From Ianthella basta (lineage: Eukaryota > Porifera > Demospongiae > Verongiida > Ianthellidae): DNA of 64,000 bases. Positions 5,351 through 62,310 of this stretch are shown in pieces. The stretch is taken from NCBI GenBank assembly GCA_964019415.1, contig CAXHTE010000077.1, positions 26,001-90,000 on the forward strand, read 5' to 3'. Position 1 is the stretch's first letter, and every line of letters begins with the position of its first letter. A model generated the notes under the pieces. That model saw only the letters and a program-made list of their open reading frames with translations, was not told the DNA's origin and made no database searches. The position numbers were made by a program, and so were the translations under genes.

Positions 5351-5521
5351 CTGAAAGGAGACCAGCCTCCTTGTCCCATCCTTGACTCCTCAGAATATCA
5401 GCAGTTTTGCTCTGTACCTGAGAAGACTTGCCTCTCTGAACTTCAAGCACAACACTGATGTCCTTCACCCTTGTACAATCTAGTCTGGAAATCAGGTTGG
5501 CTTGCCGTAGCTCAGCAAGAA
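5351..5521 (-). CDS. Repeat-module exon A1 (leftmost seen)
   Basis: This 171-bp exon runs from the acceptor TTTCACCCACAG to the donor GTAAACAG. It enters and leaves in phase 1 and encodes 57 residues starting VLAELRQANLIS, with DC in the first half, ADILRSQG in the second and a terminal split Gly. There is no stop. It is closest to A4 in its first half, where both share RLDCTRVK. It is the last repeat exon visible in the direction of transcription; the next exon would lie below 5350 or outside the window. Confidence 0.8.
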
Positions 5522-5594
5522 CTGTGGGTGAAAGGAGAAAATGACAAAGAGGGCAGTCACATATTACAACACAAGATAAAGAATAGGTTACCCC

Positions 5595-5655
5595 ACACAA
5601 GTGTACACAGCTCCTCAGGAGTGAAGCGTGCTCATAGATGGCTCATGAGGGGCTA
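5595..5655 (-). other. Conserved intronic segment with splice-like ends
   Basis: A segment of about 61 bp ending in GTAACC or GTAACT on the minus strand, and preceded by a CTAG-type acceptor, lies about 75 bp upstream of exons A1-A5 (also near 11255-11315, 18505-18570, 25815-25880 and 31325-31390). All three frames of the A1 copy contain stops from the first AG, and the A5 copy differs by a 1-nt indel. I therefore do not call it an exon. It may be intronic conservation due to recent duplication, or a regulatory or alternative exon. Confidence 0.3.
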
Positions 5656-8600
5656 GTAAGCCAAGAGTGAATAAACAGAATATGAGGAGGGACATACACA
5701 CACAGACAGGGAGGAAGCAGGACGGTGAAGTTATAATGATTATCTGATAGAGCAAGAGGGTCTAGCAGGACAGGTGCCACTCAGACACTCAGACACACAT
5801 GTTTGCACTCACACAACACAACAGAACAGTACACAACATTGCACAACACAACACTCATACAACACTACTGTTACACAAACTACATGATTATAGAAGAAGT
5901 AAAATCCATTATTATTTTATACCACCAGACAAGATTAAGAAGAAAGATATCCACACACTTAAGCATACACAGGGTAGGGAATTACAATAAACACGTGCAT
6001 GAAAATACATACCAATCACAACACAAACAATAGAGTGAACATTTGGTGAACCAACGAATAAGACAGGGACTACAACAAGAACCAGACATGCATGCACAAT
6101 TGCCACATACACAATATATTCTTTTACACACAATATTTACAGTCGAACCTGCTCTACCTGAAAGGCTCCTACACCCAAATACCATTTAATGATAGATGTT
6201 TCAGAGCAGTCATGATAACTAGGTTCAAAGGATAATTAAAACAGCGACTGTCATACACTGGCCAAGAGACAAGTCACAGCAAGTGCCAATAAATATACAT
6301 AAAGGTGCAGTGCTGGCAGTGCTGCCATTGCTGGGGCTATGGATATTAACTCCAAGCCTACATCTTTGGACTTCTGGTAAATATATTGCAGTTCAAATGG
6401 CTAGCATGTTAGGGTATGGAGCTTTGCACAGACAGTCTCCTACCAAAGCACAGTAATAATGGCCTCATTACAGCCTGGTCACGCTCGAGCTCTACAGTGC
6501 ATTGGAAGTGACTTCAACCTAGCTAGATCAGTGCACTATTAGTGAGAAAGGAATCATGTGGTGGCTTCACTGATGCACACCAGCCTTATAGTTATCATAT
6601 GGACAAAACAGCCCTGGCACATTGCAATATATTGAGGTGTGTCAGTTGTAGCCCACAGTGCAACCCAATCAGATTACAGATTGCTATGATGTCACATAGC
6701 AATTTGTGTCAACCAATGAGATTGCGCATCAGCAAAATCCACAAGTGAAGTTACACATGCTCACTGGGTGATTAGTAACCACACTGCAGAGCTATCACAT
6801 ACAGTACATGCCAGTCCTTTTCCTCGAATAGATAGGACTGGGTACAAAAGGCTACAAGACTGGACTGGCTAGAAGAGTTGAGAATGAGCTTCCAACACAG
6901 ACCAGGCTCCTCCATTGTTGCTATTCCAAAGGGTGGTGGTGAGGTACATCTCAGGGACTATCAAGTAAAAATAAATCATGCCTTGATGATGACTTAAGAG
7001 AGGACCTCACGTTCTGCCTCACTTGAGGACAAACAATTTACAAGCATGATCGCTCAGCTACAGTGGAAGCTTTTAAGACATGCTGCGCAGATACCCTTAG
7101 AAATTCAGTTCTTGTCTGTCAACATTCACTTGGCAGAGAGACTAACAGTGGGATGTTCAACTTAATTAAATGCAGAAGAGGAGTTCAAGTACACATTTGT
7201 TTAGAATGATGGTATAAATGTCAGTTGAATTGTGACGAGTTGTGTCATAGTATCTACATTATCTGAGCATGCTGACACTAGAGCTCCTTCACAGAAGAAG
7301 CCACGGTTTATATATACTCTAACAATCCAGAAATGTCACAAGTCTCCAAGCTTGTGACGTGGAGTGTTGTCCTGCTCAGAGAATCACTGAATGCCTTAGA
7401 GATGGTTAGAGACTACATTGGAAAATTTAAGTCCACATTCTATACATGGCTACATCTCACAATAGTTGTCCATTGTAACACTCCTATTCTTGTTGAAACA
7501 TGTATGGATGGTATGACTCAGCAGAAGCCATATTCCAAGTAATAGGAATAGGAATGCATCATGGACTGCCCAAAGGTACATGCTCTAGGGAACCACAGTC
7601 CATCTATTACTCCCGTCTACACCAGAGACTCACTTCAGAATCAATTCACATTAGATCACAGTCTCACACTTTGAACAGAAACGAAGGCACATCACCCTCA
7701 GTTTACAATTCATTATTTCACTGTTATACAACTCGGCTTTACTTGCATGCCTCACTTATTTCTGTCCAAATACCCTTTTAGATTTACTTGTCACCTGTCA
7801 TCTGTTCCTTTCATCTGTCATGACAGTTTACTCACTATCTGCCATTTTGCAGTCACTCACACTCTGCATCTCCATCTTTCCCCCACATTGTAGCGAATAT
7901 TCACCTTCTGTTTTGTACTATAGTCACTGATGAAGACAACTGCATGGTTGTTGAAGCCTTTGGCAGATTATTCCACTGATTTGGCTAGTGAAGATCGGTA
8001 ATAGAATAATCATCTATTACTATCTAGCTGACAGAGTATTATTTATTTTCACGATGGAATGGCACTCATACTGTATGTATATGGAATGGACTCCACATGG
8101 CACAATAAGTAATTAAACTGCCAGGACTGTGGTGCTGTGCAATCACTTGCTGCTGGTATTTTCATATCTGTACAAGGTTCAGTAGAACAATGTTATAAAT
8201 TATCTGTTGTTCAATAAAGACTGAGAGGTACCCATAGACCTCCTACTTACCTAACGTAATGGCTAAATGATTCCTCCGTGACAATTAGACAATACAATTT
8301 AGCTAGTCTATTAGTTAGAGCATAAAAGACAGCGGCCATTTTAATGTACCACTGGCAAATGATGCACCAGGCTGGACTGGCTAGAAGACTTGCATGAGAG
8401 AGAATTCCCTACGCAGAATGGATGGCTGGGTCAAAACTCCTTGGAAACAAATAGAAGTCCAGGCCTCTATTCAGACACACACATATAGCAACAAGGGTGT
8501 GTAAAAATGTTTCCTCCAAAAACAAGGGCAGATGTAGAGATGGTGCAGTGTGTCTCTGAAGGGCATGACAAGCCACCTGGCAGAAAAACCGTAGGAACCA

Positions 8601-8775
8601 GGAGGAGGGCCGGTCCATGCAAAGAGGAGGGCCAGCCTGTCCATGCAAAACCCAGATCATTAACATTCGCTGCATGCATGTGGCTGCATGGTGTAGCAGG
8701 TATGGGAATAGCATGTGTCTGGGCTGGTTGGTGATACAAAGGGATCTTCGTGCGTGACATACAGAGGTGGTTGTA

Positions 8776-8780
8776 GACAC

Positions 8781-8811
<31 letters not shown>

Positions 8812-8858
8812 TACACACACATGCACGCGCACATGCATGCACACAGACGCACGCACAC

Positions 8859-8919
<61 letters not shown>
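8776..8919. repeat. (CA)n microsatellite, unit 0
   Basis: The tract is an interrupted then pure CA/AC repeat on the plus strand, with TG/GT on the minus strand. Interruptions such as ATACAC and ATGCACGCGC lie in the first half. The apparent poly(VC) and poly(TH) reading frames through it are artefacts. The same flanks surround the tracts at 15048, 22330 and 32362. Confidence 0.97.
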
Positions 8920-9163
8920 AGCAGCACACATTTAGGTATTGTTTGCGATGCTGTGGCAACAGCCAGGTACATGCATAGCACAGGCTATTCCATGGCCACT
9001 GGACTGGCCACTGGACAGCATAATGCAGATCAAAAACAGACATGGCACCCAAGACTAATATGAATTGGCCATCTTTCATGGCTGTGACAGAATGGTCATA
9101 GCATTCAACGGGCAGCCATGTGTGGCATCAACAACAGATGCTGTATATATGTAAGAAACATGG

Positions 9164-9680
9164 CTAGGGTTCAGGTACTTTAGCACCAGTTCCTAAATAG
9201 AAGTCTGTCCCAGGCGAGGGAGGATGAAAATTCTTTAAGAAATAAAGGATGGGCTCTCTATTCAGACAAATACATGTATCTATGTATACTAGTGAATGCA
9301 AGGCATGGTCGGGCGAGCCTGAAGAAGCGTCACGTGGTAACTGTTTAAGTGATGCATGCATTAAACAGTATGCAGACTGTTCTCTTGTGCTGTCTCTTCT
9401 GTGCACTCTTGCTTCCACCAACTGGGTCAGCTTGGCTGCCTTCCTCTGTTGCCTGGTTCTGTTTCCTCTTGTGCAGCTACCCTCGTACGTGTATTCCACT
9501 GTGCGCCGACCTAAGGAGAAATTCTCGCGACGTCCGTGCTCTGGGCAGCCTGCCTGGCCCTGTTGCGCTCTCTCCGCACTCGGCACCATTCTTCCGTCTG
9601 TTCTGGCGTTTCTGAGGCACGCCGCATCCGTTCTATCTCCTCCTGCGTAGTCTCTCCTCTCTGCCCTTGGTCAAGTCTGA
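9164..9680 (-). pseudogene. CpG-richer block with degraded charged repeat, copy 1
   Basis: The same block recurs at 15457-15970 and 22753-23270. A 141-codon frame is open in all three copies, but near-identity of the copies explains that. A different minus-strand frame upstream (about 9520-9650) reads RRASETPEQTEE and VRRERNRARQAA before a stop, which resembles the charged repeats often found ahead of Helitron-type Rep/helicase proteins. I infer a broken transposon gene piece. The identification is weak. Confidence 0.35.
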
Positions 9681-10415
9681 CAGTCTACGGTCGGTAGAAT
9701 TGCCCGTGGTGCGATCCATAGCTGTAGCATGCAGTGCCTAATAGGTTGACTCATTGTATTGTCTCTCCATTGTGTGGCTTGGGTCCCAGTGCAGGTATAA
9801 TGATATTCATAATAGTGAGACCACAATGCTTATAACATGCAAAATGGCTAGTATAAATCCCATTGGCATACGGACTGAACGGTGTATACGCTAACACCCA
9901 ATGCGCGCTGCAGGCCCCTGGGCAAATGTTCCGCAGATCCCGACCAAAATATTACGCAGAAACTTCCCTCCTTGTTCCAAACGGACCTACGTACCAGACA
10001 GACAGAGCCACCGTACTACTCGTAAGGGAAGGGGCTCGCTCAGGCTCGCCCCAATAATTCAGTTCGTTTGTCTGTTTGTTTGTTCGCTTTTGGCGCAAAA
10101 TGTACGGAACAGAACGCCTCCAAACTCTCAGGGATTATAAAGTGCGGCTCAGAAGTTCCTACACGGGTTGAAATCGCCCGTCCTGCAGTTCCTGAAGAGA
10201 TATCCATTGATTTCCGGTTTTCGTTCGCGGCTGACGGCCATTTTATTAATTATCGCTCATTGACTTCCGGTTATCGGGCGGATTCATTCGCTATCGTCCC
10301 ACAATCGAATTTAAACTCGGCCGTCGTTATAGCAGCTGCCCTCCGTTGCTAACAGCGCAGATTCTTCAAATCAGCCTGGGCCCAACTCGCTGTCGTGTGA
10401 CTCGCCGAAGCAGAA

Positions 10416-10442
10416 GCCCGCCGAAGGCGGGCGCCCTGCCAG
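10416..10442 (+). mobile_element. Helitron-like 3' terminus, unit 0 (mutated)
   Basis: A perfect 7-bp hairpin, GCCCGCC-GAA-GGCGGGC, is followed 10 nt later by CCAG. In units 1 and 2 the same place ends in CTAG. A hairpin a short way before CTRR is the hallmark of a Helitron 3' end. The matching 5' end was not located. Confidence 0.5.
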
Positions 10443-11007
10443 TACACTAATAAACTGAAACAAAGACCAAGCCGTTTAGGGGGCGGCACCACATGCAAAC
10501 AAGTGCTTCACAGCAAGTAACTCATTACAGCATGTTCACATAAATCCAGACCATTACTTTTAAGCATGTTCACACCAGTGTGAAAGCAATCATTAGTTGG
10601 CTTCACATATACAAATGTGCCTTGTGAGTAATTAGCACCAAGTTGTCAAATAAGAATCACGGCCAATCTGAAGACAAGTTAACAATGGAAGGCAAATGAG
10701 CTGAAACCAAGATAGTCATTCATGTGAAACAAGGTGGGCATAGTTGTTCAAAGATCCAAAGTCAATTACTACTATAGGTACAGCATCATGTACACCTTGT
10801 CAACATGTAGTGTAATTCACACAATGGGCCACTGTCTGGGAAATTAAATACAAGTGTGAAAGTGCGGATCGACGTGCATCTAATTAGCAGCTGAATCACC
10901 TTGTCTAAAGTGCATTCCATTGCCTTTAAAGTGCATGGCTGTTACAACTAGGATACGTACAATGTAATGTAACAGAAGGAAGATGGATGAGGGCTATGTC
11001 TGTTTAC

Positions 11008-11178
11008 CTGAAAGGAGACTAGCCTCCTTGTCCCATTCATGTTTCCTCAGAATATCAGCAGTTTTGCTCTGTACCTGATGAGACTTGCTTCTCTGAACTT
11101 TAAGCACACGACTGATGTCCTTCACCCATTCACAATCATATCTGGAAATCAGGTTGGCCTGCTGTAGCTCAGCAAGAA
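11008..11178 (-). CDS. Repeat-module exon A2
   Basis: This 171-bp phase 1-1 exon has acceptor TTTCACCCACAG and donor GTAAACAG. It encodes 57 residues, VLAELQQANLIS then YDCEWVKDISRV in the first half and ADILRKHEWDKEASLLS at the end, closing on the split Gly. It is most like A3 (YDCEYVK). No stop or frameshift is present. The usual Gly after His in the second half is Glu here and in A3. Confidence 0.82.
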
Positions 11179-11797
11179 CTGTGGGTGAAAGGAGAAAATG
11201 ACAGGGAGGACAGTCACATATTACAACACAAGATAGAGAATACAGTTACCTCACACAAGTGTACACAGCTCCTCAGGAGTGAAGCGTGCTCATAGATGGC
11301 TCATGAGGGGCTAGTAAGTCAAGGGCGAACAAACAGAAGATGTGGAGGGACACACTACATCACACGCACACAGACAGGGGAAGAAACAGACATTACATTA
11401 CAGTTAGGACAGTGAAGTTGTAATGGTTTTCTGATAGAGCAAGACGGTCTAGCAGGACAGGTGTCACAGTGATCATGTTCTAATCCTGCACTCAGACACA
11501 CATCTTCGCATTCACACAACGCAACAGAACACTACAGAACATTACACAACATAGCACAACACAACACTCATACAGCACAGTATAATATAACGCACAAACT
11601 ACATACAGAAGAAGTATAATTATTCTATCACCAGACAAGATTAAGAACACAGATAATCACACACTTAAGCATACACAAGGTAGGGAAATACAATAAACAC
11701 ACACATGTACATACACACCAATCACCACACAAACAAATGAGTTCACATTCCTTCAACCAATGAATAAGATAGGGACTACAACAAGAACCAGACATAC

Positions 11798-11846
11798 ATG
11801 TACACGCACGCACGCACGCACGCATGCACGCACACACACACACACA
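11798..11846. repeat. Short GCAC/CA microsatellite
   Basis: This is a run of (GCAC)n followed by (CA)n. It sits at the same place as the much longer tract at 26360-26508 in unit 3 and the short one at 19056-19085 in unit 2, so tract length differs greatly between units. Confidence 0.85.
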
Positions 11847-15047: not shown

Positions 15048-15138
15048 ACACACACACGCATACACACACATATACACACACACGCACATACACACAAATG
15101 CACGCGCACACGCATGCACACACACACACACACTCACA

Positions 15139-18261: not shown

Positions 18262-18432
18262 CTGAAAGGAGACTAGCCTCCTTGTCCCATTCATGTTTCC
18301 TCAGAATATCAGCAGCTTTGCTCTGTTCCTGAGGAGACTTGTCACTCTGAACTTCAAGCACACGACTGATGTCCTTCACATATTCACAATCATAACTGGA
18401 AATCAGGTTGGCCTGCTGTAGCTCAGCTAGAA
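18262..18432 (-). CDS. Repeat-module exon A3
   Basis: This 171-bp phase 1-1 exon has acceptor TTTCACCCACAG and donor GTAAACAG. The protein starts VLAELQQANLISS, continues YDCEYVKDISRV, then DKSPQEQSKAADILRKH, and ends EASLLS plus the split Gly. It is an intact paralogue of A2, with changes mostly in the middle loop between the two conserved halves. Confidence 0.82.
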
Positions 18433-22329: not shown

Positions 22330-22411
22330 ACACACACACGCATACACACACATATACACACACACGCACATACACACAAATGCACGCGCACACGCATGCA
22401 CACAGATGCAT

Positions 22412-25573: not shown

Positions 25574-25744
25574 CTGAAAGGAGACTAGCCTCCTTGTCCC
25601 AATCATGTTTCCTCAGAATATCAGCAGTTTTGCTCTGTTCCTGAGGAGACTTGCCTCTCTGAACCCCAAGCACACGACTGATGTTCTTCACCCTTGTACA
25701 ATCTAGTCTGGAAATCAGGTTGGCCTGCTGTAGCTCAGCAAGAA
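25574..25744 (-). CDS. Repeat-module exon A4
   Basis: This 171-bp phase 1-1 exon has acceptor TTTCACCCACAG and donor GTAAACAA. The module starts VLAELQQANLIS, has RLDCTRVKNISRV, then RGKSPQEQSKTADILRKH, and ends EASLLS plus the split Gly. It shares its first half with A1 and its second half with A3, a mosaic that suggests gene conversion or unequal exchange between units. Confidence 0.82.
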
Positions 25745-31082: not shown

Positions 31083-31253
31083 CTGAAAGGAGACTAGATT
31101 CCTTAGAATGCCCATGCCTTTTTAGAATGTCTGCTGTTCCGATCAATACTTTAGGAGACTTGTCACTCTGATAATAAAGCACATCACTGATGACACCTAT
31201 CCTCTTACACTCTCTGCCGGAAATCAGGTCAGCTTTTTGTAGCTCAACAAGAA
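31083..31253 (-). CDS. Repeat-module exon A5
   Basis: This 171-bp phase 1-1 exon has acceptor CCTCTCCCCACAG and donor GTAAACAG. The module starts VLVELQKADLIS, has GRECKRIGVISDV, then DKSPKVLIGTADILKRHG, and ends ESSLLS plus the split Gly. It differs from A1-A4 at many residues, yet the frame, length and key positions are kept. That argues for selection on the protein. Confidence 0.82.
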
Positions 31254-32361
31254 CTGTGGGGAGAGGAGAGAATAACAGGACAATCACACATTACAACAAA
31301 AGACCGACAATACAGTTACCTCGTGCAAGTGTACACATGCACCTCAGGAGTGAGGCTTGCTCATACATGATTGATGAGAGGCTAATAAGCAAAAGGTAAA
31401 CAAACAGACGATGAGAAAGGACACACACTACATCACACACAGACAGGGGAGGACACGCAGGCAACTGGACAACTAGGACACTGAACCTGTATAAGGGATA
31501 GATTGAGAGGGTCTAGCAAGACAGGTATCGTAGTGCTATGTATTATATAATCCTGACACTTAAATATGTACGTACTGTATGTTCACACTTACACAACAGA
31601 ACACTAGACAACATAGTACAATACAGCACACAACACACGTGCTCTTAGAAGTAATATCATACAGTTGGACCTGCTCTACCTGGAAGGATCTTACATCCAA
31701 AGACCATTTAATGATATAGATGTCTCAGATTGGTTGTGACAAATACGTAGGCTCAAAGGATAATTACAAAACAGTTGAACACTGACCAATAGACAAGACA
31801 CAGCAAGTGCCAATGAATATACATGGTGCAGTGCCCTGTTGCCATAGCTAGGGGTACTGATAACTCTAAGCACAAACTCTTGAACTTGAAATGTAAGGGC
31901 TGCCCAGCCGCTGCACAGATGAGGACTGCCTGGGTGGCCTAGCCAGAGCCCCAGTGCATTGCACAGAGAGAGCTGAATATCCATGACTCAGATGGCTATG
32001 GCCAGAGTTGAAGCCCCCAGCTTGTCAGAATTACAATTTCAGGGTAACCCCAAGCAACTCAACACAGTACATACACTGTGCAACACAAGTAGGATGTACA
32101 TAATTATACAACTACCACACTAGATTAGGAACATACTGTACATACGTATATCTACATGTAGCAGATGCCACAGTAAAGACCAGAAACTAGAGTGGCCACA
32201 GAGCACATACCCTGTGCAGGAGTGAGGAGCAAATGCATGGAAGCATGCTGTCATAGTTGCATGTGACTGCATGGCATAGCAGGTATGGGAATAGCATGTG
32301 TGTGGGCTGGTTGGTGGTACAAGGGGATCTTTGTGCATGAAATACAGTGGTGGTTGTAGAC

Positions 32362-32524
<163 letters not shown>

Positions 32525-34291: not shown

Positions 34292-34462
34292 CTGTAATGA
34301 GCTTTGACGCCGTCTCAAGTCCATGTTTCTGCAGAATCTCAGAGGTCTGGGATATCATCTCAGGAGACTTGCTGCTTTGAACTCCAACCACTCTATTGAT
34401 GTAACCCAGCCTCTGGCACTCTTCACTAGTCATTAAATCAGCTTGTCGTAGTTCAGCAAGAA
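34292..34462 (-). CDS. Repeat-module exon A6
   Basis: This 171-bp phase 1-1 exon has acceptor CTCCTCTCTCACAG and donor GTGAACAA, a GTGA donor unlike its neighbours. The module starts VLAELRQADLMTSEEC, has NRVVGVQSSKSPEM, then TSEILQKHGLETASKLITG with the Gly split at the junction. It matches the module consensus better than any other copy and is well diverged from the A1-A4 group. Confidence 0.83.
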
Positions 34463-37673: not shown

Positions 37674-37791
37674 CTGCAAGGAATTTTGACATTTCATCAA
37701 ATCCATGCTTCTTTAAAATCTCATTCGATTGTGCCACCATATCACTCTTGTGCCACAACTGTAGCAGCTGTAACATGGTAATGCACAACAG
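37674..37791 (-). pseudogene. Decayed half of a repeat-module exon
   Basis: The second half of the module is present: HKSDMVAQSNEILKKHGF then SKFLAG with the split Gly, and a good donor GTAAACTG. The first half (LAEL to the Cys) is missing. The only plausible acceptor, TCCTTTCACAG, would give a 118-bp exon entering in phase 0. Splicing it to a phase-1 exon would shift the frame. It is therefore probably skipped, or it belongs to an alternative transcript. Confidence 0.65.
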
Positions 37792-39949: not shown

Positions 39950-42099
39950 ATGGCGTCCGAAGGAACAGGGAAACAGCCAACAAGCAGTGGTAACGTGGAT
40001 GAAAGCTTACCTGACAAGTCTTGGACAGTGAACCAACTCCGCGACTACTTGCGGAAGCGAAACGGACGGCTCACGGGCAGAAAGAACGATCTCCTGCACC
40101 TGTAAGTTCGCGGATAAAAGCTAACTCTGTCGCCCGCTTTGCACTTTCTCCCTACGCGACCCTCGATGCTTGACGCTCTTGTTGTGTACTTACCTTGTGT
40201 TGCAGAGCTCAGTTTTATCACCAGCGTCCAGAGGCTATTCCCACAACAAGTCGGAAGCGAAATTGTCCGAACAGTGCAGCTCCTACTGCGACAGAATCGC
40301 GTCCTGAGGCTTGGCCAACATCTGGCTGGTCTGATCGACCTGAGGTATTGCCAATTGTCACGACACCAGTGATTCTCTCACACCTTCTGCAGACTGGAAA
40401 GGCTGTGTCCAGTGATACTGTACGGTTGACACAGAAGTCTCTTGACCGCGGCCATGACTTCTATTTTTGGGGGTATGTGCATGATGTGAAGGTGTGCCAA
40501 GGTGATGCAAAGTTTTATGTGGAGTCAAAGTGCTGGGCTTCACAACGCAAGCATATGGAGTACACACAGAAAATTGTTCTGTCTGAGATGCAGCAGTCCG
40601 AACACCCAGCTGAAATGGAAAGTGAAGGAGAGGAACGTGCAAGTACTCAACTGCGTGTAACGTATGCTTCGTGTATACCTTGTCCAGCTGGAACAAGTGG
40701 TGGTTTGTGTCAGCATGTTTTCGCGCTGCTTATTCTCTTGCAACACTATGCGCCCAAGTCTAGATCTCTACCAGCAGCATCTCTCCCTGGCTCTGACTCA
40801 GTCACCAGTGGCAAGAAGCTATGGGGACCCCGAGAACGAGACATAGCGCCAAAGACCGTTATGGAGACAATGGTCGAAAAGGCCAAGGATCCGTCAGAGA
40901 GAAAGAAATCTGCGATAACCTGCAGCCTTTATGAGGCAAGAGGACCAGCTACCCGTAAGCTCTCGAAAGAGAGTATTGCTGAACACAAGCAGGGTCTGAG
41001 TGATGTCTGCCGTCTGAGACCAATGCTACCATCTGGCACCAGCGACATTCCATATGTGGAAACTCAGTACGGTGAAGCCCCACTAGGCAGTGTGCTCTCC
41101 TACCAACTCGCTGGTAGTATGGACACTTTCAGGGAGCAGGTGCTGCAAGCCAAGGAGAGAGGGGATCGGTTGATACGCGCAGCTGCAAAGAAGCAAGAGT
41201 TTTTGTCACAAGTAAAGCAACCATCTTCACATCAGTGGTCCGAAGAAACGGTGGAGAAGTATCGGAGACGCAAGGAGGAGGGCTATGATGTGCCTGATGA
41301 GGACTACGAGGCTTGGCTGCGCTCACTACCAGCAGTGGTAGTTTCTCCAACCATCCAGTTCCCCATCCTACCACTTGCTTGCACATCAGTGTGTAATGCC
41401 TCGTTGCGAGAACACTTGATCTCCACTGAAGAAGCCCAGCACATCCAACAATCAACTGTGGGACAAGCCTCAAATGCGTTGTGGCTGGAACTGCATGGAT
41501 CGACTATAACTTCCTCGAACTTCAAGAAGGTTGTCAGCCGGCAATCTGCGTATACAATAGAGTTTTTCAATTCAATCTTCAAGCAGCGCGACATTGGTCT
41601 TTTACCAGCCATAGCTCACGGGAGAGTGAATGAAAGCCATGCTGCACAGCTGTATGTGGAGACGATGAAAGCGGATGGGAGGCCTGTTGCCATTCAGGAG
41701 TGTGGCTTATGTCTTCATCAACAGTACCGATTCCTTGGTGCTTCCCCTGATCGAGTAGTGTATGACAACTCTACTGTTGACTGTTTCGGCCTGCTGGAGA
41801 TAAAATGCCCATACAAAGCGTACACTCTTCGTCAAACTGTCATCGAGGCATGTGCCGAGGCACAGTTTTGCTGTGCACTGACTGATGGACGACCGCATTT
41901 AAAGAAGACACACGCTTACTATCACCAAGTCCAGGGCCAGATGGCAATCACAGGTTTGCGTTGGTGTGACTTTGTTGTGTGGGTGGGTCATGGTGATCTT
42001 CATGTGGAACGCATCTACTTTGACTCTGAGATGTGGGAAGGTGAAATGCTGCCCAAGCTACTGACTGCCTACCAGCAATACATTCTCCTCGAAGTGTAA
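39950..42099 (+). CDS. SAP-SWIM-YqaJ transposon protein (two exons)
   Basis: The exons are 39950-40101 and 40206-42099, with donor GTAAGT and acceptor TTGCAG. The split Leu codon keeps the frame, giving 681 residues. The start ATGGCGTCC follows the left inverted repeat closely. Residues about 20-55 look like a SAP DNA-binding motif (WTVNQLRDYLRKR). A SWIM-type zinc finger has C207, C210, C219 and H221. From about 470 to 660 a YqaJ-type PD-(D/E)xK nuclease domain shows GRVNE (E527), GASPDR (D566), LLEIKCP (E582, K584) and HQVQGQ. The family resembles phage recombination exonucleases. In this transposon group its role is unproven, but it may process DNA ends during transposition. No stop or frameshift is present. 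Confidence 0.88.
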
Positions 42100-42121
42100 G
42101 AACATGTACTGTAACATAGCT

Positions 42122-43826
42122 TTAATGCTCGTCCACCTCTGCAATGACCTTGCCGCGATAATTGGTCAGAAGGCAACAAACAGTCCAAATCTGGTTGATG
42201 GAGCCAACCATTGACAGAGGAATCACCCCTTGCAACAGGTGATATCGCTGCTTCACCTGGCCAATGACTCGTTCGACATGAATGCGCACACTGGCAATGC
42301 GCTGAGTTGCGATAACATCCTCCTTCTGAAGGTGGCCTGCACCTTTAAAAGGAGGAATGTTAAGCAGGATGTCATGCTTTGCAAGCAAGTCTTGTATGTC
42401 AAACCCCCGGTCAGCCATTATGGCTTTACCCTTAGGTACCACTGGCAGCAGGTCAAGGAACCCAGACTTGATTGTCAACTCGCGGTCACTGATCGAACCA
42501 TTATATAATGTGCTAATAAAAACAATTGCACCATTTGGGGCAATGCCCACAAGCCCTTTCATGGTTGTGTGGGATTTGTAGCTGGAGTAGCACTGAGATT
42601 GGAGGCTGAGGGAAGCTGGAACTTCGCAGAAGAGTTCGGTGGCATCAATGATTGCAAAGGTGGTTGGATATGACTCCTTGAAGCAGTTTGGCATGCTTCC
42701 TTCCACACTTTCCCATGATGGCCATATCGGCAGGCTCCCAAGACGAAGGTACAAATAGTTTATCCATTTCTGGAATATACGGCACACGGTTGACTCGGAC
42801 ACACCAAATCGGATCGCTAAATCACGCTCGGCGGAACCTACACGGAGACGGATTAAAACAATGAGGAGTTGATCCTCCTCGGTCAATGTGCAATGGGGGC
42901 CAGCACCACTCGTTCTCTGCCGCTCATCATCACTCATCTGAGTGCTGGTCCTCATGTTGCCAACGGGATCAAGAAACTTCCAGAATACAGCAAAGTCTTC
43001 AAAAGTGGCAAATCCCGTATAATACTCAAAGTCTGATGAACCTATGGTGGAAGGCACATGAAACAAGGATATACACACATACACATGCATGCATGCATGA
43101 AGATGCACATTAAAGCACGGAATACATCTGAATGAGCCATGGACTACAATCGCATGACGTAAGTGCATGATGTTCCTAGCTGTAATACTAGTATTATAGC
43201 TAGGAACATCATGCACTTACGTCCCAGGTACACTAGTGCAAAATCACAACTACAGTGCTGCTATTGTGTAAATCTGAACACCACACATGTACAGCTTGCT
43301 CACCTTTCTTGCCAGATGCATGATGAACCTTGTCAGCCTCTACCAGGTTTTCGAATCGCAATACTTGGGTTCTTAGGAACATAGCTTCCTCCTTGGCACG
43401 CTCCAGATCCTTCCATGTTTGTGCCAGTTCAGCTCTGAGTGTGTCAACCTCCGTAGCACACGTAGCCACTCTCACTTCAGCAGACAGCGTTGACAAACTT
43501 CTCTCCCGCGGCGCAGGACGAGTCTTCGCAGTAGCATTCCACGCGAACACGGATGGTACTGCCTCGCGCTTCAGACGACGTGTTTTAGACTTGACCGCAC
43601 CACTTCCTTGTCGCGATCCAGTGGAAAAGTCGGCAGCAGTGAAGTGCGCTCCGCAAACAACAGTAGAAGAACTAATCCTGAAGTGTGGCCCCACATCACG
43701 TCTGATAGCCACAAGCCAACGTTTCCTTAAGTCTTCGTTCGCAGGAATGCCATGAAAAGACACTTCAGGACACTTGTCGCGACGGTTACTGCAGTTCGGC
43801 ACACAGCAGTGGTCATGCGCTGGCAT
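42122..43826 (-). CDS. THAP-DDE transposase (two exons)
   Basis: The exons are 43826-43304 and 43041-42122 (minus), with donor GTGAGC and acceptor CCACCATAG. Both sides are phase 1, giving 480 residues. The N-terminal THAP zinc finger shows C8-x3-C12, a conserved Trp, C-x2-H (VVCGAHF) and an AVPSVF box. A coiled-coil-like stretch follows at about 110-170. Then comes a helix-turn-helix (about 225-270) and a DDE_Tnp_4-type catalytic core with IIDATE (D307), MADRGF (D385) and HVERVIG (E431). It would bind the terminal repeats and cut and paste the element in the nucleus. Its stop lies only 22 bp from that of the convergent YqaJ gene. All key residues are present. Confidence 0.88.
43156..43223. 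repeat. 68-bp near-perfect palindrome in transposase intron
   Basis: The arms begin GACGTAAGTGCATGATG and its complement. They pair for 26 bp, then after one mismatch a palindromic centre, TAATACTAGTATTA, completes the hairpin with essentially no loop. It lies wholly within the 262-nt intron (43042-43303). It could be a tiny hairpin element or a structure affecting splicing. Confidence 0.9.
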
Positions 43827-43907
43827 TCTACCTTATTCCGAACGAAAGAAGCACAAACAGGAACGATTCACAGACTAAACACGAATATTTGTCACTCCAG
43901 TCGAGGC

Positions 43908-44349: not shown

Positions 44350-44523
44350 CTGCAAAAAGCTTTGCCTTCACTGTCTGAAGTCCATGTTTCAACAAAACCT
44401 CAGCACTTTTAACTTGAACTTCTGAAGGCTTCTTGCGTTGAAGTGCAACCACATCATTAATGCGCCACACCTTTGCACACTCTTCATAAGTGATAAGGTG
44501 AGCCTGTTGTAGCTCAGCAAGAA
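44350..44523 (-). CDS. Repeat-module exon B1
   Basis: This exon is 174 bp and phase 1-1, with acceptor TCCTCTCTTGCCCAG and donor GTAAATGG. It encodes 58 residues: VLAELQQAHLIT, YEECAKVWRINDVV, RKKPSEVQVKSAEVLLKHG, ending KLFAG with the Gly split. It has one more codon than the A type. Exon B3 is its recent paralogue. Confidence 0.83.
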
Positions 44524-48996: not shown

Positions 48997-49152
48997 CTGC
49001 AATGAGTTTCGACTGTGTCTCAAAGCCATGTCTCATCATAATCTCACAGGCTTGGGACACTACTGCAGGAGGCTTTCCACTAACCGCATGAATGAAGTTA
49101 CCCTTGCGCTCATCACTAGTGAGGAGGCCAGCTTGCTGTAGCTCAGCAAGAG
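48997..49152 (-). CDS. Repeat-module exon B2
   Basis: This exon is 156 bp and phase 1-1, with acceptor CTTTCACACAG and donor GTAAGCAG. It encodes 52 residues: ALAELQQAGLLTSDE, FIHAVSGKPPAVVSQ, ACEIMMRHGF and SKLIAG with the split Gly. It is shorter than the other types by 5-6 codons in the middle. The usual Cys after Glu near residue 16 is Arg here, although its paralogue B4 keeps Cys. The TTT-rich loop is intact and in frame. Confidence 0.8.
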
Positions 49153-51386: not shown

Positions 51387-51560
51387 CTGCAAATTCTTTC
51401 ATCTCCTCTGTCTGAAGTCCAAGTTTGAAGAAAACCTCAGCACTTTTAACTTGAACTTCTGAAGGCTTCTTGCGTTGAAGTGCAACCACATCATTAATGT
51501 CCCACACCATTGCACACTCTTCATAAGTGATAAGGTGAGCCTGTTGTAGCTCAGCAAGAA
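51387..51560 (-). CDS. Repeat-module exon B3
   Basis: This exon is 174 bp and phase 1-1, with acceptor CCTCTCTCTCCCAG and donor GTAAATGG. It shares VLAELQQAHLITYEECA and KKPSEVQVKSAEV with B1, then diverges at the end (FFKLGLQTEEMKEFAG). Substitutions relative to B1 cluster in the C-terminal part and include loss of the His before Gly. Confidence 0.83.
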
Positions 51561-53160: not shown

Positions 53161-56100
53161 TCTGGCATTTGCTTACAAAAGTCATTCCAATCAGCTGACT
53201 ATCCTACCACACACACAACTGTCTGAATATTAAAAACATGAGATTCATAATACACCAGAATCTGTCTATCACATTCACCAGTGTGACTAGCCAACTGGGC
53301 TACTGCAGGTGAGTGCATTGGAGAGGTGCAATGCAAACTATCACAGTGTAGGCTACATAGTCAATACAACCAAATCATCCTTAGTCCTTTACTTCGTTAC
53401 TTTACTTAGATGGATTCTAGCGAACCTCACACAGTTGATGAGATGGTCAAGTTTGACATTTTGGCATACTCGTCTTCGGTAGCCAGTTCCAACACATTTC
53501 ATCTCAAATTGACAAACAGAAGAATGACACTGGGGACTTTGGCAATGAGAAGGTGAACAGAAGTATCCATTACATGCTGTTCACCACCTTTTGTGCTAGT
53601 TAAAGAATTACAACATTTCTGCCAATACCTGCAGTACATTGGCTTTAAGCATGTATCAAATACAGTGCTGAAGTTAGAAATACTGGTCCTACCAGTATTG
53701 AAAGTGAAGCAGCCACAGGGCCTGAGAAAGACAAAATCACATTAGCACAAGATCAGTGAAAGAGAATGCGTGATGGTGGATCTCCAAGTGGGCGCCTACT
53801 GCTTGCTGTTAAAGCTTGGTAGGAACACCAAGATCCCCTTCACAGAGAGACTATGCCAACTAAATGGCAGCGCGTGGAGAGGTACGTGGAGGACTAAGTC
53901 CCAATTCTGACCATCTGTCGTGTGCTTTTAGTCACACTTAAGAACTCATTAATTCAAGCACTGCACTAAACCAGAACACCATTATATCATTACACACTAC
54001 TGGATATGACGAGGTCTATTTACACTGATTTCATGGCACAAGTATATAATGGTAAAGGTGTATATTCATGCAGGCAAAATATATATGAGCAAGCACTGCC
54101 TTCTGCATGCTGCGCTTGCTCCGCCACACGTTGCCGGATGAATGGTGCAGTCCACCTAGTGCCATTTCGACAACCAGCCTCTGACACAAGCTGCTGCCAC
54201 ATGAAGTAAACAACATTAGATTAAAAACTTTGAGAAATGGGTCAACAGATGAAATCATTGTAATGATGGTCGTTGCCATTTACGTTAGCTCAAAGAATTG
54301 CCAATTTGGTCAAAACTTTCATTTCTGTCAGTACCTGTATTACTGTACATTAGCTTCAAGCATTAAAATACAGAAGAAACTAACAGACACAGTTGGTATG
54401 TAAGTAGTCTCTATCCAATGATGGTGTCTCAAAGTGGCTGCATACAACCAGGCAACATAACACTTTAACAGAAAGGAACAAGCACACAAACACTCATACA
54501 TGCATGCAAACAGACAATGCACACAAATTAATGCAACAATGCACTAGTTCAAAAAGTATACAATCTCAGACTATGGTTGCACAATCTCTACACAGTCACT
54601 CCTACCCACACAACCACACCAACTCATACTGCCACAACCACCAACACAGTCACACCTACCCACATGTTAGTATTGTGAGACTGCTGTTTATGAGTTATGT
54701 GGGCACATCTGTTCACCATAGTCAGGATACGCAACAACATTGGACACTGTGGATTATATACCGTGTGTACTCTTTCAATTGAAAGACGCATCCATTGTGC
54801 AGTAAGCGCTACCGAGCAGTGCCTCTATTCAGTCTTAGATCATGTAGCTCAAGGAGCAGTGTCCGACTCATACCCATATGTGGTCTACTTCCTCAGAAAC
54901 AATGATAGTAGGCCTGTGCAGTGCAGTGACATATAACAATTACAATGCTAATCTGTAAAAAGTTGAAGTAAATTATTGCTAAATGCCATTTTTGCACCCA
55001 ACAAAGGCTACAATGGATCCTTGCTATACACATAGATAAAGCCATCTTCCAGTAACCATGACAGCTTTGATTTCATCTAAATAAACAGTTAACAACTACC
55101 CACTGTTTATGGCTATGAAGAAGTGAAGGCCATGTCCACTATCTGCTCTGTCTATCCTGAGCTTTAGCGATGCATAAATTTCAATCACTGTGCTACACAA
55201 GAAACACCAAACACACACTGCAGGATACTGTAAGACAAGCTAGGTCTCCCTTAGACCATTACAATGCTCTCGTAGTATAACTAATGGGAAATGTACCTCC
55301 ACAGGCAGAGCACTAGTACAGTTAACAGATTAAATTGCTCCACAATTCTGCCAGCCACCCAACTCAACACACTCTGTTAGTTTCCAATATTTGTGGCCAG
55401 CAAGCCAATTCTTGGCTAAGCAATCACTCTGCTGCTGCCACGTGAAAATACTGATACACATTGCAACACATAAGCATACACCTACACCCACTAACTGACA
55501 CACCTACTCATACCAGACACACACTGATGCAGTAGCAGATGGATCGTATATACATACTTCATACGTATGTGTTAACACAATGGTGTGGGACTAAATACCA
55601 TACTAATCTGTTGTAAAGCATAATAATATGCTAATAACTCTGATAGGATAGAAATATGCATTTACAATAATAAAGGATATACGCTTAACTGAACATTGCA
55701 AAAGCATCAACAAATTATAATGATACGCAAATGTCACTGTAAGATGGCCACCACTTAGTGCAGTGAACAAGTTTCCATTTGGCGCTATGTTACAGACTTT
55801 TTTGAATCGCTTGTCCACATAGCTAACCGGTATCCGGTAAGCGCTTGCACAATATTATACGAATTCATGCACATACTTACAGTATAATTGCAAAATCTAG
55901 TATAGGCATAGATTGTGAGCTAGAGATTGTATACAGCAATACTGCTCATGTTTATGTATAATACCATGATTTCGACTCTGGTACCTGGTGCCCAGTGTGG
56001 ACAACCAACCAAAAAAGGTTTGTACTAGTTTGCACTTCATGATTACACTTCAGCCAAGCTGCTAGTCTTCCAGGGAGTCCTATATGCACCTCAAAGAAGG

Positions 56101-56672
56101 GATGAAGCCCCGAAATCAATAGACACCTAAACAATCAGGGTGAAAAACTGGTAAGGAATTGGGTGCTCAATAAAGGAAATGCTCTTATAAAGAGGGTGCA
56201 CTTAACACAACCAATCAGTACAGTATGTCACAGTGGGCACACAGTGTTGTACAGACAATGGAATGGTGATTAACACAAACAATTGCAATAGGAAATGTAG
56301 TACTCCGTAGATTGGACATCTGTCAGATTGCTTTGTGCCCAGTAAGCCAGTTCATGGCTAAGCAGCCCCTGAAGGTCAACATGAGCTGCTGCCACATGAA
56401 AATACTGATACATACATAGCAACAACTACCCATACACCTAAGTGCACTCACCAACCGACACACCCACATCACCTATTCTACACAGACACACACTCATACA
56501 ACAACAGACAGACACTAAAAGTGGCCACAATAGTGTGGAGCTCATGATGTCACAACTGACACACAAAGTCTTTACATGATAAGTGCATGGGGGTGATGTC
56601 AACATGGTATTGATAACTTGGCTCCATTGTATGTACAACCAAACACAGACAATTTACAAAACATCTGCTTAC

Positions 56673-56828
56673 CTGCAATGAGTTTCGACTCTGTCTCAAA
56701 GCCATGTCTCATCAGAATCTCACAGGCTTGGGACACCACTGCAGGAGGCTTTCCACTAACCGCATGAATGAAGTAACCCTTGCACTCATCACTAGTGAGG
56801 AAGCCAGCTTGTTGTAGCTCAGCAAGAG
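56673..56828 (-). CDS. Repeat-module exon B4
   Basis: This exon is 156 bp and phase 1-1, with acceptor CTTTCACACAG and donor GTAAGCAG. It encodes 52 residues: ALAELQQAGFLTSDECKG, FIHAVSGKPPAVVSQ, ACEILMRHGF and SKLIAG with the split Gly. It keeps the Cys that B2 has lost. The length and phase are identical to B2. Confidence 0.82.
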
Positions 56829-57444
56829 CTGTGTGAAAGAGGAAAAAGGGACAGGGAGGACAATGAAACAAGCCCATACACAAGATATGGAATACAATGG
56901 GACTCCAGAATACAGGAATGGCATGAGTTGAATGGGGAAATGCATGTCCTACCTACAGCAAGAGTGAGCATCCTAAATTAACACATCAACAACATGCATG
57001 CATGTATGTATGCCATAGGTACTGTACATTACATTATAAGAGACTGCAGCTCACAGCAAACACTGCATCATCCCTGTACACACACACTCACCACAACGCT
57101 AACATCACCACCAGAGACCCACTATATATATCAACCTTCCCTTATTGCTCACATGTGTACTAGAGGTTACATACCTAATCCTGTGTATCAGGTTCTCACA
57201 TGCAAGAACTAGCTTGTTCTTTCTGAGTTATCTTCACTCTAGTACAGTAACACACTGACCAAGAGATGCCTCTAGGAGTTACAGGGTCCAAGTGCCGTGT
57301 AGTCTATGTATCTCCTCACAGTCATCATGGCCAGCATTTAACTACATTTAATACAGATCCCTAATCCCAATTCAATTTGTGACTTTACAAACATCACATA
57401 ACCTTATGCACGTACATACACAAACACATGCAGTTGAACTTGCA

Positions 57445-57868
57445 ATGTCGTCACCACCTGTCCTGTGCTTTCAGTCATATAAAAAAACAATGATTCAATC
57501 ACTGTGCTACACTAGAACAACACTTTTATCATTACTCGTTGATGGTTAAGTCAAGGTCCATGATAGCTATTACAATGAACTTATTGTATAACTAATTATA
57601 GAAAAATACCTTCACAAATAGCATATCATATTCCACAAATTAACACATCAAACACATCAATCAAACATAAGAATTAGCTACACTGCATGGAAAGAAACAA
57701 ACTGCTGATGACATTCGTTGGGTACATAAGCAGTCTCTATCCAATGATGGCATCTGAAAGTGACTGCATTCAACTATATGTTTCCTCACAGCTCTTACAG
57801 AAACAGAAATAATAAAATGTTTTTACAAAAATTGAAGGATGTAGATGTGGCATACTAAGTACAGAAAC
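57445..57868. other. Intronic sequence, nothing recognised
   Basis: AT-rich sequence with no supported gene or transposon end. Confidence 0.4.
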
Positions 57869-57984
57869 AAGTAAATGATGCTACACAGTGAAGCATAAAC
57901 AATGGTCCCTACATGCAAGAATGTAGCACCATCCTTGAATGTAGGTACCATTGCTAATGCTTCACTGTGTAGCATCATTTACTT
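57869..57984. repeat. Hairpin element of about 116 bp
   Basis: Two arms of about 55 bp, starting AAGTAAATGATGCTACACAG, face each other with almost no loop and a few mismatches. This could be a foldback MITE or a primer-template hairpin. No target duplication is clear. Confidence 0.75.
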
Positions 57985-60520
57985 ATCTGCACTTTTTAGG
58001 CCATCCCTACATCCTTACTATCAATTTATTGTATATTTTTACTATCCCTTTTGTAAATTTGTATTATTTCTAGTTTCTGTACTTTTCATAGTGTGTAACT
58101 AAGCTGTAGCTACACGCTAACCCACAATCATAGAACAATGGTTCAGTGTTAGGCCTTATTGCTGTAACCCTGGAGCTCAAGGTGTGGGCTAGCATCTATA
58201 GGTTCTGTGCTAACTCGCCAAAAAAGAATACAGAAGCCAACCGTGCAGTAATTACAAATGGTGGGTAAATCCACGACCGCAAATGTCCTTCAAATGGCAC
58301 GCAAGCTAAGTTTGGCTGAGGCTACCCACGTGCGCACCTCCAATCGGACATACAATAACGTTGCTAGGCTATTGAATTAAAAACTGAAGGAGGACTAGGC
58401 GAATAAATGTAGCAAAACCGTTCAATTACATCATCATAAAATGGTGTCTCTTGTGTAGTAACGTTTCTCGAAGGCCCGGAAACCCTCATTTGTGAAACTT
58501 GCTCACAGAGGCTTCTAACCAAAGGAATACAGCCAGTTAGGGGGCGTGCTAAACTGTAATAAAGGTTTTCGTCTACTCGTCATGGTTCGTGCACTAATAC
58601 TGTCAAAGAAGAAGAAGAAGACGAAGATGATGATGAAAAGTGGAAAATGTCAAGGTCATTTTCTGCCGGAGAGCGCACTTTCACTGGAAAGTTATGTTAG
58701 TCCTGCACTGTATGCAACAGATACTTTCTTTTGGGTAGCCCTTTTGCCGGTTTTCAGTCCTAAACAGTAATAGCACTACGTTTCGTTTGCATAGCATACA
58801 AACAACCACTGCTATCCCTACATAGACAGCACTACCGTGTTGTCTGATGCTGTCATTGCCATCATTATGTACATCAACAACAGTCACAAGATTGTACTAA
58901 ACAATGTCTACCACTGATTGGAGATGAGTTTGTATAAGCAAACACACAACACACACACAAACCTCCACATGCACCTACCCACAAAGCACACCTACAGTAC
59001 ATAACCAAACACCAGTACTACAACACAAACATTCCATGCGAGTTATATGTGACATCATCAGTGATTTGGTAGAGGCTCATAGCTGCGTTGGTTGCTTCCA
59101 GCAATATTCCATGAGAAGCTGACAAAGGCTCTAGAGCCAAGTGTCCTGCCACTACCTCCCCTTTGTGTAAAGCTGAGATACTGCTCTTTGAATTTCATGT
59201 TTAGTCATCACTTGACCTACGTAACTGACTGTCAAAATTAGGAGGCTAGAGAAATTAGATTGGAGAACTCCAACATTACTTCCATATTTCCTGATGATGA
59301 TCCATGGTAACACATTAAGCAGTGCTACAGCAATACTGGACAAATTAGATGACTGGTGTACATGCAATTGAAAGCTGATCAACACAAACAAAATACAAGT
59401 TTTGACATTATGCAAACTAGCCCTTTACTTTGTTACTTAGTTTACTTAGATGAATTCTGGAGAGCCACACACAGTTGATGAAATGGTGAATAACATTTAC
59501 TGCCCAATCACCGTCATCTCCTCTAACCTAGTACATATGTACCATGTTATACTACGCAGTCTCTGCCACTTGAAACACATGACAAGAGTAACGTAAAAAC
59601 AAAAGATATGCAAGCACACCCAACCCTTCCATTTTATGTCATACCCACTGTGACATTGGGTGGAGTGAGGTGAGGGGTGTACTCAACAGTCAATCACAGA
59701 CATCTCATCACCCACTTCCTCTAGATCTCCTATTAAAGGCATTCAGGTCTACAAAACAACACACACCAATGACCTCCTGATAGGCCACAGAGTACAAATG
59801 CCACACATTTTCTATTTCTAACCTCGACTGCCACATATGTATAATAATATATGAATCAACCCACAATTATGTCCCATCACCCGAACACAACACCCTCTCA
59901 AAGTGATGCATATGTGTGTGGCTAGAAAGCCAGTTTATGGACAACCAGCCCCTGACACAAGCTGCTGCCACATGAAATATGATCAATAGATACTGGAAAT
60001 GGAAAACATTTTGTGGGTAAGAAATTTCACCAAAGAGCTGGTAGAACTGTAGATATTCCAGGGCGACTGTGTTAAGTGAGGGGAGAGAAGACACAACCGT
60101 CTTTCCATTGAACCACCCATAACTGCTCCTTTTCTTCAGCGACTGCAAGACAGCCACCAAGGGTGGCTTCAGTAACAGCATGTTTCGGGATAGTTGAGCA
60201 GAGTGATCCAATGGGGTCAGGCAAGTTGTCTCTACAAACTGGCTGGAAGTCACTGCGTTGTGCAATTCATGGACTATATACTATCGCGAAGAAACAGTGC
60301 CCGCAATTATAGTGAAAGATTCCAAGGCAATATTTTTACACTTAGCTCAAGTACCCCACACCCATCTAATTATACCTAAACACCCCTCCACACCTACCAA
60401 CACACACACCTTTTCCTACCAATACACCCACCTCTACCTACTGATACACTCTCATCACTGATTCACACACCAGCAAGCACTAATGCAGCAACACAAACAC
60501 ACTCATATGCTCAGACACTA
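57985..60520. other. Intronic stretch with weak coding-like pieces
   Basis: A CpG-richer piece at about 58200-58560 is followed by an acidic or basic run (GAAGAAGAAGAAGACGAAG) at about 58605, open in two frames, with no family match. A minus-strand frame at 59867-60265 (132 codons) has coding-like codon choice, but its plausible splice sites are not phase-matched to the module gene. I do not call either a gene. The motif GCTGCTGCCACATGAAA near 59965 is a dispersed repeat also seen near 48705, 54190 and 56383. Confidence 0.35.
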
Positions 60521-61830
60521 TATGTATTATGTCAATACGACAGTGTGGGGACTGAGATGTGACTGTGGACACACAGCGGCTCCATACATGATGAGTGTGG
60601 GGTGATGTCTGGAAGTGGACTAGACAACTACGTATGTATGTAGGTCCACTGCATTAACCAACACAGGAGAACAGCTGAGGAATACTGTACAGGTGTTTAC
60701 CTGAAAGGAATGCAGATACTTCCTGATATCCATGCTTTAGCAGAATCTCAGCACTTCTGGACTTGATGGTAGGAGTTTTGACTCGTAGTACATTACGCAC
60801 CTTCCAGACAGTAGACAGTCCCTTACACTCGTCACTTGTGATGAGACTACCCTGGTGCAACTCAGCAAGAACTGGGGGAGAGAAGAGAGGAGGAACAAGG
60901 AGGCCAATCACACATTAGCAACAAAAGACAGAGAATTATACAATGGGACTTGCAACACCATGAATGACAGGAATGGAATGGGGAATGTGGGGTGGGTATT
61001 GTCTTGCATATATATGAATGGGTTTTCCAATTATACACAACATCAGAACACAATCTATGTATGTACTATGTACACCTATCTAGGTACTGCACATCAGTGC
61101 CTGTGAAAGGAAGCAGGGATATGTAGCAGTAACTGACACCTGTTTAAGTACAGAAGGAAAGGACCACCACGGGTGAAAGTGGAGTATGTGTTAGTTGATG
61201 GTAGAAGAACACCACTAGCACAAGATGAAGAGCTTGAGGATGTAGACCAACATGGTACAAGTTGGAGTGGGATGCAGCAACCCAATTCAGGTAGCACCAC
61301 ACAGTGCACAGCTGGACACACGGTCAAGAGGTCAAAGGTTGCGCTCTTGTGCAAGTGACAGTTGGTTGTTGTATCTCACTACAACTTGTGGACACGATTG
61401 TTATGACATGAAACCAACCAAAGTTGGAACAGGATGCAGCAATAACATGCAACTACAGTTAACTGTAGAACGAGTGGACACACAAGAAACACATTCAACA
61501 CAGGTGTAAGTAGCTCTGGCATTTGCTTACGAAAGTCATAGCAATCAGCTGACTATCCTAACACACACACACAACTGTCTGAATATTCATTTAAAGCATG
61601 AGATTCATAATACAGCAGAATCTGTCTATCCCATTCACCAGTGTGACTAGCCAACTGGGCTACTGCAGGTGAGTGCATTGGAGAGGTGCAATGTAAACTA
61701 TCACAGTGTAGGCTACATAGCCAATACAACCAAATCATCCTTAGTCCTTTACTTCGTTACTTTACTTAGATGGATTCTAGAGAACGTCGCACAGTTGATG
61801 AGATGGTGAATGGCGAACCCATTGGGACAC
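60520..61830. repeat. B-unit 3, partial
   Basis: Blocks at 61150-61810 match 45380-46030 and 52400-53480 in order, including the dispersed GTCAAGAGG repeat (61323). It includes exon B5. Confidence 0.8.
60701..60871 (-). CDS. Repeat-module exon B5 (first module)
   Basis: This 171-bp phase 1-1 exon has acceptor CTTCTCTCCCCCAG and donor GTAAACAC. The module starts VLAELHQGSLITSDECKG, has STVWKVRNVLRV, then KTPTIKSRSAEILLKHGY, and ends SAFLSG with the Gly split. It is the first repeat exon downstream of the predicted start exon, across a 1,411-bp intron, and is well diverged from the others while keeping the module's key positions. Confidence 0.83.
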
Positions 61831-62282
61831 ATTTACTGCCCACTCACCGTCGTCTCCTCTAACCCTAGCACATACCACGTTATACAACGCGGGAATGCGC
61901 TGGCATAGTTAAGATCAGAACGTGTTGTTTTGGGTGCCTATACTCTAGTAGCACTGCTTCGCTCTGGTGCGGTGTACATGACTGCGAGGGCCGCTCTGAC
62001 CAAGACGAATCCTCTGATCATGTTAAAAACAGAATGACCGTGAGGAAAGTAGCCGACCAGCTACCGAAACGAATAACTGAGAACCTCTTGGTTAGTGTGA
62101 TGAACTTGAATGACTGTACCTTTAGAACAATCTACCCTCATATCAAGTTAGGTCAACCACTAGCTAATATCACAGACGGCCTGGGTAGCTGTCAGGTCCG
62201 GTGGCAGTGCGGGGATGACGGTCAGTCACACATTCGAAATCATCGAGATTCGGTAACCACTTTAAACATTGTACTTGCTCAC
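61830..62282. other. First intron, distal part
   Basis: The sequence is CpG-richer than its surroundings and unrelated to the B unit. A 106-codon plus-strand frame at 62034-62354 overlaps the start exon on the other strand and has no recognisable family. It probably belongs to the promoter-proximal region. Confidence 0.35.
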
Positions 62283-62310
62283 CTTCATCAGTTAATAAGA
62301 ACGGATCCAT
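62283..62310 (-). CDS. Predicted start exon of the multi-module gene
   Basis: On the minus strand, GGGAATGG starts a frame reading MDPFLLTDE. The exon then ends in a single G before the donor GTGAGCAAG. The 28 coding nt leave phase 1, exactly what the first repeat exon (60871) needs, giving MDPFLLTDEVLAEL. The initiation context has A at -1 and G at +4 but no purine at -3 (G at -3 if the ATG is counted from GGGA). The exon is too short for statistical support; the phase match, the donor and the promoter-like sequence upstream are the evidence. Confidence 0.55.

Follow-up and report, generated by a model that had tools for sequence, protein, structure and literature searches.

In brown algae, LRR-ROCO genes encode receptors built from repeat exons, which evolve by shuffling and diversifying selection; they have an N-terminal array with one phase-symmetric exon per repeat preceding a ROC-COR GTPase, show diversifying selection at a few sites per repeat, and have been proposed as immune receptors (PMC11378527). 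Sponges, as early-branching animals, carry a big expanded family of intracellular receptors, the NLRs, part of which have CARD or DEATH ends (PMC12909245). Here we describe a locus of the sponge Ianthella basta, to which these two systems are among the closest known. The window, a stretch of 64,000 nucleotides (bases 26001-90000 of the 90,000-base contig C75, CAXHTE010000077.1, in a genome of 209 Mb), carries eleven related module exons on the minus strand. In our view these probably belong to a gene for an intracellular protein with a short N-terminus, 11 tandem five-helix modules, a divergent ROC-COR GTPase and probably a CARD-like domain, in which the module array would serve as recognition surface. 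Computation shows the gene frame, the exon structure, the predicted module fold, the resemblance to ROC-COR and its linkage to the modules, and an excess of replacements in the divergence of young tandem copies.

The repeat-exon logic of ROCO genes is thus already known from brown algae, and what is new is a different repeat, in an animal. The algal repeat is an LRR of 23 amino acids (aa) encoded by 72-bp phase-2 exons (PMC11378527), whereas the sponge module is a five-helix unit of 52-58 aa, encoded by one phase-1 exon each and matching no LRR family. Sponge NLRs are defined by NACHT and LRR, and the terms 'roco' and 'gtpase' are absent from the main text of PMC12909245.

The original prediction, made from the window alone, had reported eleven minus-strand exons of 156, 171 or 174 bp with GT/AG sites, identical 1-1 phase and no stops. 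All eleven are present (171 bp seven times, 174 bp and 156 bp twice each), and every one has a polypyrimidine tract followed by AG, a donor GTAAA, GTGAA or GTAAG, phase 1-1 and a stop-free frame. The gene model comprises the following features, with one relic that was excluded from it.

62283..62310, minus strand: exon 1 (MDPFLLTDE-G), 28 bp, phase-1 donor GTGAGCAA, called by ATG and donor pattern
60701..60871, minus strand: module exon 1, 171 bp
56673..56828, minus strand: module exon 2, 156 bp, short type
51387..51560, minus strand: module exon 3, 174 bp
48997..49152, minus strand: module exon 4, 156 bp, near copy of module 2
44350..44523, minus strand: module exon 5, 174 bp, near copy of module 3
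37674..37770, minus strand: truncated module relic (start approximate), excluded from the gene model
34292..34462, minus strand: module exon 6, 171 bp
31083..31253, minus strand: module exon 7, 171 bp
25574..25744, minus strand: module exon 8, 171 bp, A type, duplicated block
18262..18432, minus strand: module exon 9, 171 bp, A type, duplicated block
11008..11178, minus strand: module exon 10, 171 bp, A type, duplicated block, source of the structure model
5351..5521, minus strand: module exon 11, 171 bp, A type, duplicated block
C75:25418-23278, minus strand: ROC-COR exon, next after module 11, outside the window

The start exon, the 11 modules and the downstream GTPase exon splice computationally into one stop-free frame, and each module fits by phase onto both exon 1 and the ROC-COR exon. 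The locus looks like a single minus-strand gene of tandem phase-symmetric module exons, as had been proposed, although the ROC-COR exon lies beyond the window end and was hence invisible to the window-only reading. Two details of that reading changed. Its end at 62310 is the A of the exon 1 ATG; and the supposed terminal split Gly becomes, after splicing, a Val (G-TT) or Ala (G-CT) that opens the next module as residue 1. Modules 4 and 2 differ by 5.0 replacement and 2.0 synonymous changes, modules 5 and 3 by 12.8 and 2.2, and A-type modules 8-11 lie in four duplicated blocks with a spacing of 5.7-7.3 kb. An 11-module profile recovered all 11 modules from the 1,278 open reading frames (ORFs) of at least 30 aa in the window (E 6.4e-27 or better), a recovery that is circular; besides these it found the relic (E 3.6e-8) and nothing further below E 1. 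The relic retains a donor, and a phase-1 acceptor was not found by eye.

Short ATG exons with the same donor precede modules elsewhere as well, encoding MDPYYLTDE on C16, MDPYLLTDE in the next C75 gene and the diverged MASRLYE on C6. One gene per duplicated block is not favoured, because a search with the exact donor GTGAGCAA turned up a single minus-strand ATG exon at the array, ahead of its modules; a second match to the ATG-exon pattern, at 43304-43382, falls in a transposon. Nor did a search allowing up to 3 mismatches find a copy of the C6 start exon; other donors were not sought. Against a single gene weigh the long introns (1.4 to 9.9 kb) and the distance of 5.9 kb between the last module and the ROC-COR exon. 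The gene model also bears on a reading in which the modules are alternative exons, one or a few per transcript, such that one gene yields many receptors. Alternative-exon diversity of this kind is known from insect Dscam and the clustered protocadherins. All modules are phase 1-1 and compatible with exon 1 and the ROC-COR exon, and brown algal ROCOs splice their LRR exons alternatively (PMC11378527); the single start exon with donor GTGAGCAA by the array argues against it (other donors and signals of mutually exclusive splicing were not sought). We regard it as an unlikely, if serious, alternative to a tandem array translated as such.

The G domain of the exon downstream of module 11 has the motifs GPSAVGKS (P-loop), DTGGQ and GTFKD, and its key residues are invariant in 45 of 45 aligned relatives. 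Pfam Roc was detected in 18 of the 45, always below cut-off, and COR-A also in 18, at E up to 1 (best 8.2e-5). ROC-COR structures top both fold comparisons of the GTPase model, and sequence and model together predict that the exon encodes a divergent ROC-COR (ROCO) GTPase. Counting against this assignment, the window gene's own product (P0104) has no COR-A match, the model is of low confidence (pLDDT, the predicted local distance difference test, 51.9) and the structural matches have root mean square deviations (rmsd) of 5.3-13.2 Å. A PDB sequence search with the exon gave nothing useful, NACHT yielded no row for the exon or its 45 aligned relatives, and no kinase was named in the part of the frames scanned. 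The metazoan ROCO proteins LRRK1/2, DAPK1 and MASL1 share the ROC-COR GTPase and, with one sponge relative, upstream ankyrin repeats; unlike them, the C75 sequence is so diverged that Pfam Roc stays below cut-off, and its module array resembles no named N-terminal domain. The exon following ROC-COR matches the CARD profile weakly in 2 of 21 members (best E 0.029) and Dark_CARD weakly in 1 of 21 (E 0.042), with ICEBERG as the top, again weak, PDB row (E 0.22) and no PDB row for a two-sequence profile; ROC-COR is probably followed by a CARD-like signalling domain.

Two genome-wide module searches scored the best 150 of 252 and the best 150 of 429 candidates, so that module counts are lower bounds; C52, which holds six of the same module matches in reversed order, and C75 were counted separately. 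None of the 150 scored modules in the first search carries a stop, nor does any among the listed matches of the second, and an open frame in 150 modules is more than chance. On C16, five ROCO exons each follow a set of listed modules (5, 8, 6, 8 and 8), and a sixth, with one internal TAG, follows the last 8-module set. When the module matches of both searches were united and C6:0.5-0.95 Mb excluded, 98 of 100 were followed within 70 kb, at a median distance of 11.6 kb, by a ROCO exon on the same strand; the exceptions were a module at a contig end and C6:1592763. Among prokaryote genome contigs, a set that may lack records of the genome studied here, the module profile gave 240 pattern matches, none of them confirmed.

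The excluded C6 cluster counts against a strict pairing of modules with ROCO, as it makes up 63 of the best 150 rows and, in the stretch read, a different exon, not a ROCO, follows the modules. Here (C6:0.55-0.89 Mb, one 20-kb stretch read) the modules are spaced mostly 0.9 to 2 kb apart, with one at a greater distance. After them come a frame of about 375 aa, present in two copies, and one frame that is CARD-like by eye, which may or may not be spliced to the modules; neither kind of frame has a Pfam match. On C5, ROCO exons about 82% like the C75 one occur; in the single gene read there, over 20 kb, frames with ankyrin repeats stand upstream in the same orientation, and the module gave no match. 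Close ROCO relatives seem to have swapped their N-terminal repeats. As a separate observation on C6, the end of the preceding gene (L042:1482-2657) shows by eye an exon resembling a CARD along with small exons, and its last exon may be death-domain-like but has no Pfam match.

The original prediction had also claimed selection at the protein level, and this is supported, being diversifying in kind among young copies. For 45 distinct module exons (990 non-independent pairs, 3 set aside), the 83 pairs with synonymous divergence (dS) below 0.15 have a median ratio of replacement to synonymous divergence (dN/dS) of 1.72, and the median falls over successive bins of rising dS to 1.08, 0.76, 0.52 and 0.33. 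Values near 1 between diverged modules had been named as speaking against selection; among diverged modules of the window dN/dS spans 0.33-1.04, and most pairs stay under 0.85 though two come near 1, which does not clearly do so. As a control, eight ROC-COR exons from C75, C16 and C5 gave dN/dS of 0.08-0.48 in 28 of 28 pairs.

Adjoining introns were used as a second yardstick. In 20 of the 26 A-type pairs whose flanks both differ by under 5%, replacement change is greater than intron change. The signal comes from six tandem A-type copies and appears in 15 of 15 of their pairs (2.2% in introns, 4.9% at synonymous and 8.4% at replacement sites), and in three sets of three independent pairs from these six, picked for matching flanks, replacement again exceeds intron change (Fisher p 1.2e-8, 1.4e-6 and 8.5e-12). 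Some modules change their protein sequence faster than the adjoining introns. Our own coding of a codon model on 13 distinct A-type exons gave an overall dN/dS above 1 (p 0.011), and a site model, run from one starting point and with naive posteriors, preferred to place 25% of sites in a class of their own, at dN/dS 12 (twice the log-likelihood difference 54.7, 2 degrees of freedom), with posterior above 0.9 at sites 12, 13, 14, 16, 17, 18, 24, 27, 31, 36, 46, 47 and 48. Diversifying protein-level selection among young module copies is supported by these data.

Several observations pull the other way. Over all 136 A-type pairs (17 exons), flanks differ by 14.8% upstream and 22.3% downstream, more than replacement (11.1%) or synonymous sites (6.4%), because the flanks of several copies stem from different blocks; the excess over introns holds only where flanks match. 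The other 6 of the 26 matched pairs are identical exons or differ by one replacement, and are probably segmental or allelic copies. In the independent pairs, the contrast of replacement with synonymous change by itself does not reach significance (p 0.08 to 0.32), and synonymous change is about twice intron change, itself not significant (p 0.06 to 0.18). Conversion may therefore have sped up exon change; it is likely to occur among the gene copies, and the site model can be inflated by it. The pooled flanks, together with the truncated relic near 37.7 kb, could also point to a decaying array with neutral replacements, that is, relaxed or pseudogene evolution. This we hold to be highly improbable given the absence of stops in the 150 scored modules, the replacement excess in 20 of 26 matched-flank pairs (Fisher p 1e-6 to 1e-12 in three pairings), the mostly sub-unity dN/dS of diverged copies and the constraint on the ROCO exons.

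A structure prediction of one module had been proposed as a check, and the model of module 10, with five helices, appears death-fold-like. All 58 modelled residues superpose at 2.2 Å on residues 24-88 of the Apaf-1 CARD (1cy5), with 14% identity; the modelled module lacks CARD helix 1, having five helices where a CARD has six. The earlier idea of a shortened CARD is therefore the best structural match, and sequence profiles do not support it: the CARD profile hit 1 of 81 members at E 0.11 and none of 4 modules in a separate Pfam scan, no Pfam family exceeded the cut-off, and a PDB sequence search gave weak rows only (best E 0.078). That the CARD reading is structural only, with no link from profiles, tells against it. 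Homology of the module to the downstream CARD-like domain is not claimed (hhalign probability below 2%, single-comparison E 0.026 and 0.031). The adhesion-GPCR (G protein-coupled receptor) GAIN domain, a first guess from a motif, was dropped, PF00002 having 155 genome matches, none among the listed ones on C75, and the modules matching no Pfam family above its cut-off. We know of no CARDs that form hypervariable tandem repeats.

The death-fold-like model raises the possibility that the array is a polymerisation scaffold, in which death-fold filaments would start from the row of truncated CARDs, and replacements would adjust which partners each paralogue accepts, avoiding cross-assembly. Selected sites 12-18, 24, 27 and 31 lie on module helices 2 and 3, corresponding to CARD helices 3 and 4, which take part in CARD-CARD contacts, and a CARD-like exon lies downstream. 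The missing helix 1 speaks against a scaffold, and the ankyrin repeats that stand instead upstream of the close C5 ROCO relative better fit a ligand-binding region; we consider a scaffold distinctly unlikely.

We favour the reading that the gene looks like a fast-evolving intracellular recognition receptor. Blocks of intron and exon would duplicate in tandem. Since all module exons are phase 1-1, the frame would survive gain, loss or reordering of modules as well as their omission from the spliced transcript. Selection would alter residues of module helices 2 and 3 and the end of helix 4, while the remaining module and the GTPase would stay more conserved. By analogy with ROCO and NLR receptors, the array may bind something variable, ligand contact may change the state of the ROC-COR switch, and the CARD-like end may signal by recruiting partners via death-fold contact.

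More tentatively, and with somewhat less than even confidence, we propose that an early-branching animal has evolved a large ROCO receptor family with a ligand-facing, hypervariable array of truncated CARDs. Duplication of blocks with one module exon each, together with positive selection and perhaps splicing, would have diversified the array; the family would have an origin separate from that of the brown algal LRR-ROCOs, and its modules would also occur on at least one other C-terminal domain. If true, a recognition repeat would have been made from the CARD fold, otherwise known as a conserved adaptor in signalling, and the ROCO scaffold would twice have become a platform for rapid receptor diversification. 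In an animal that lacks adaptive immunity, the family would be a concrete, testable candidate for recognising self and non-self, or microbes, by highly polymorphic means. Pfam-based surveys of animal immune genes may miss it, because no family library searched names the module. No description of CARD-like repeat exons before ROC-COR was found among the titles and abstract openings listed, a weak form of evidence that covered few subscription papers.

Other features were noted in passing. The intron between modules 5 and 6 contains a DNA transposon (window 40174-43832) with separate ORFs for a YqaJ-type exonuclease (641 aa, plus strand), a DDE_Tnp_4 transposase and a THAP protein (minus strand). 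Broken reverse-transcriptase-like remnants of a long interspersed element (LINE) were seen by eye on the minus strand at about 580-2000. Minisatellites with a repeat spacing of mostly 8 to 10 bases lie at about 8.7-9.0 kb, at 15.0-15.3 kb and from 22.3 kb, in matching places of successive duplicated blocks, and a related 300-base stretch recurs at 32182-32481. Elsewhere, two related frames in opposite orientation (L040:1258-2055 and 2382-3320) have stretches such as LPGKVL and DYYPG in common, the former frame giving a chance-level Pfam row only. C12:4.78-5.04 Mb holds a dense array of secretin-type (7tm_2) GPCR frames; of 30 listed near full-length matches, 28 lie in open frames of 658-887 aa, one in a frame of 360 and one in a frame of 2,431.

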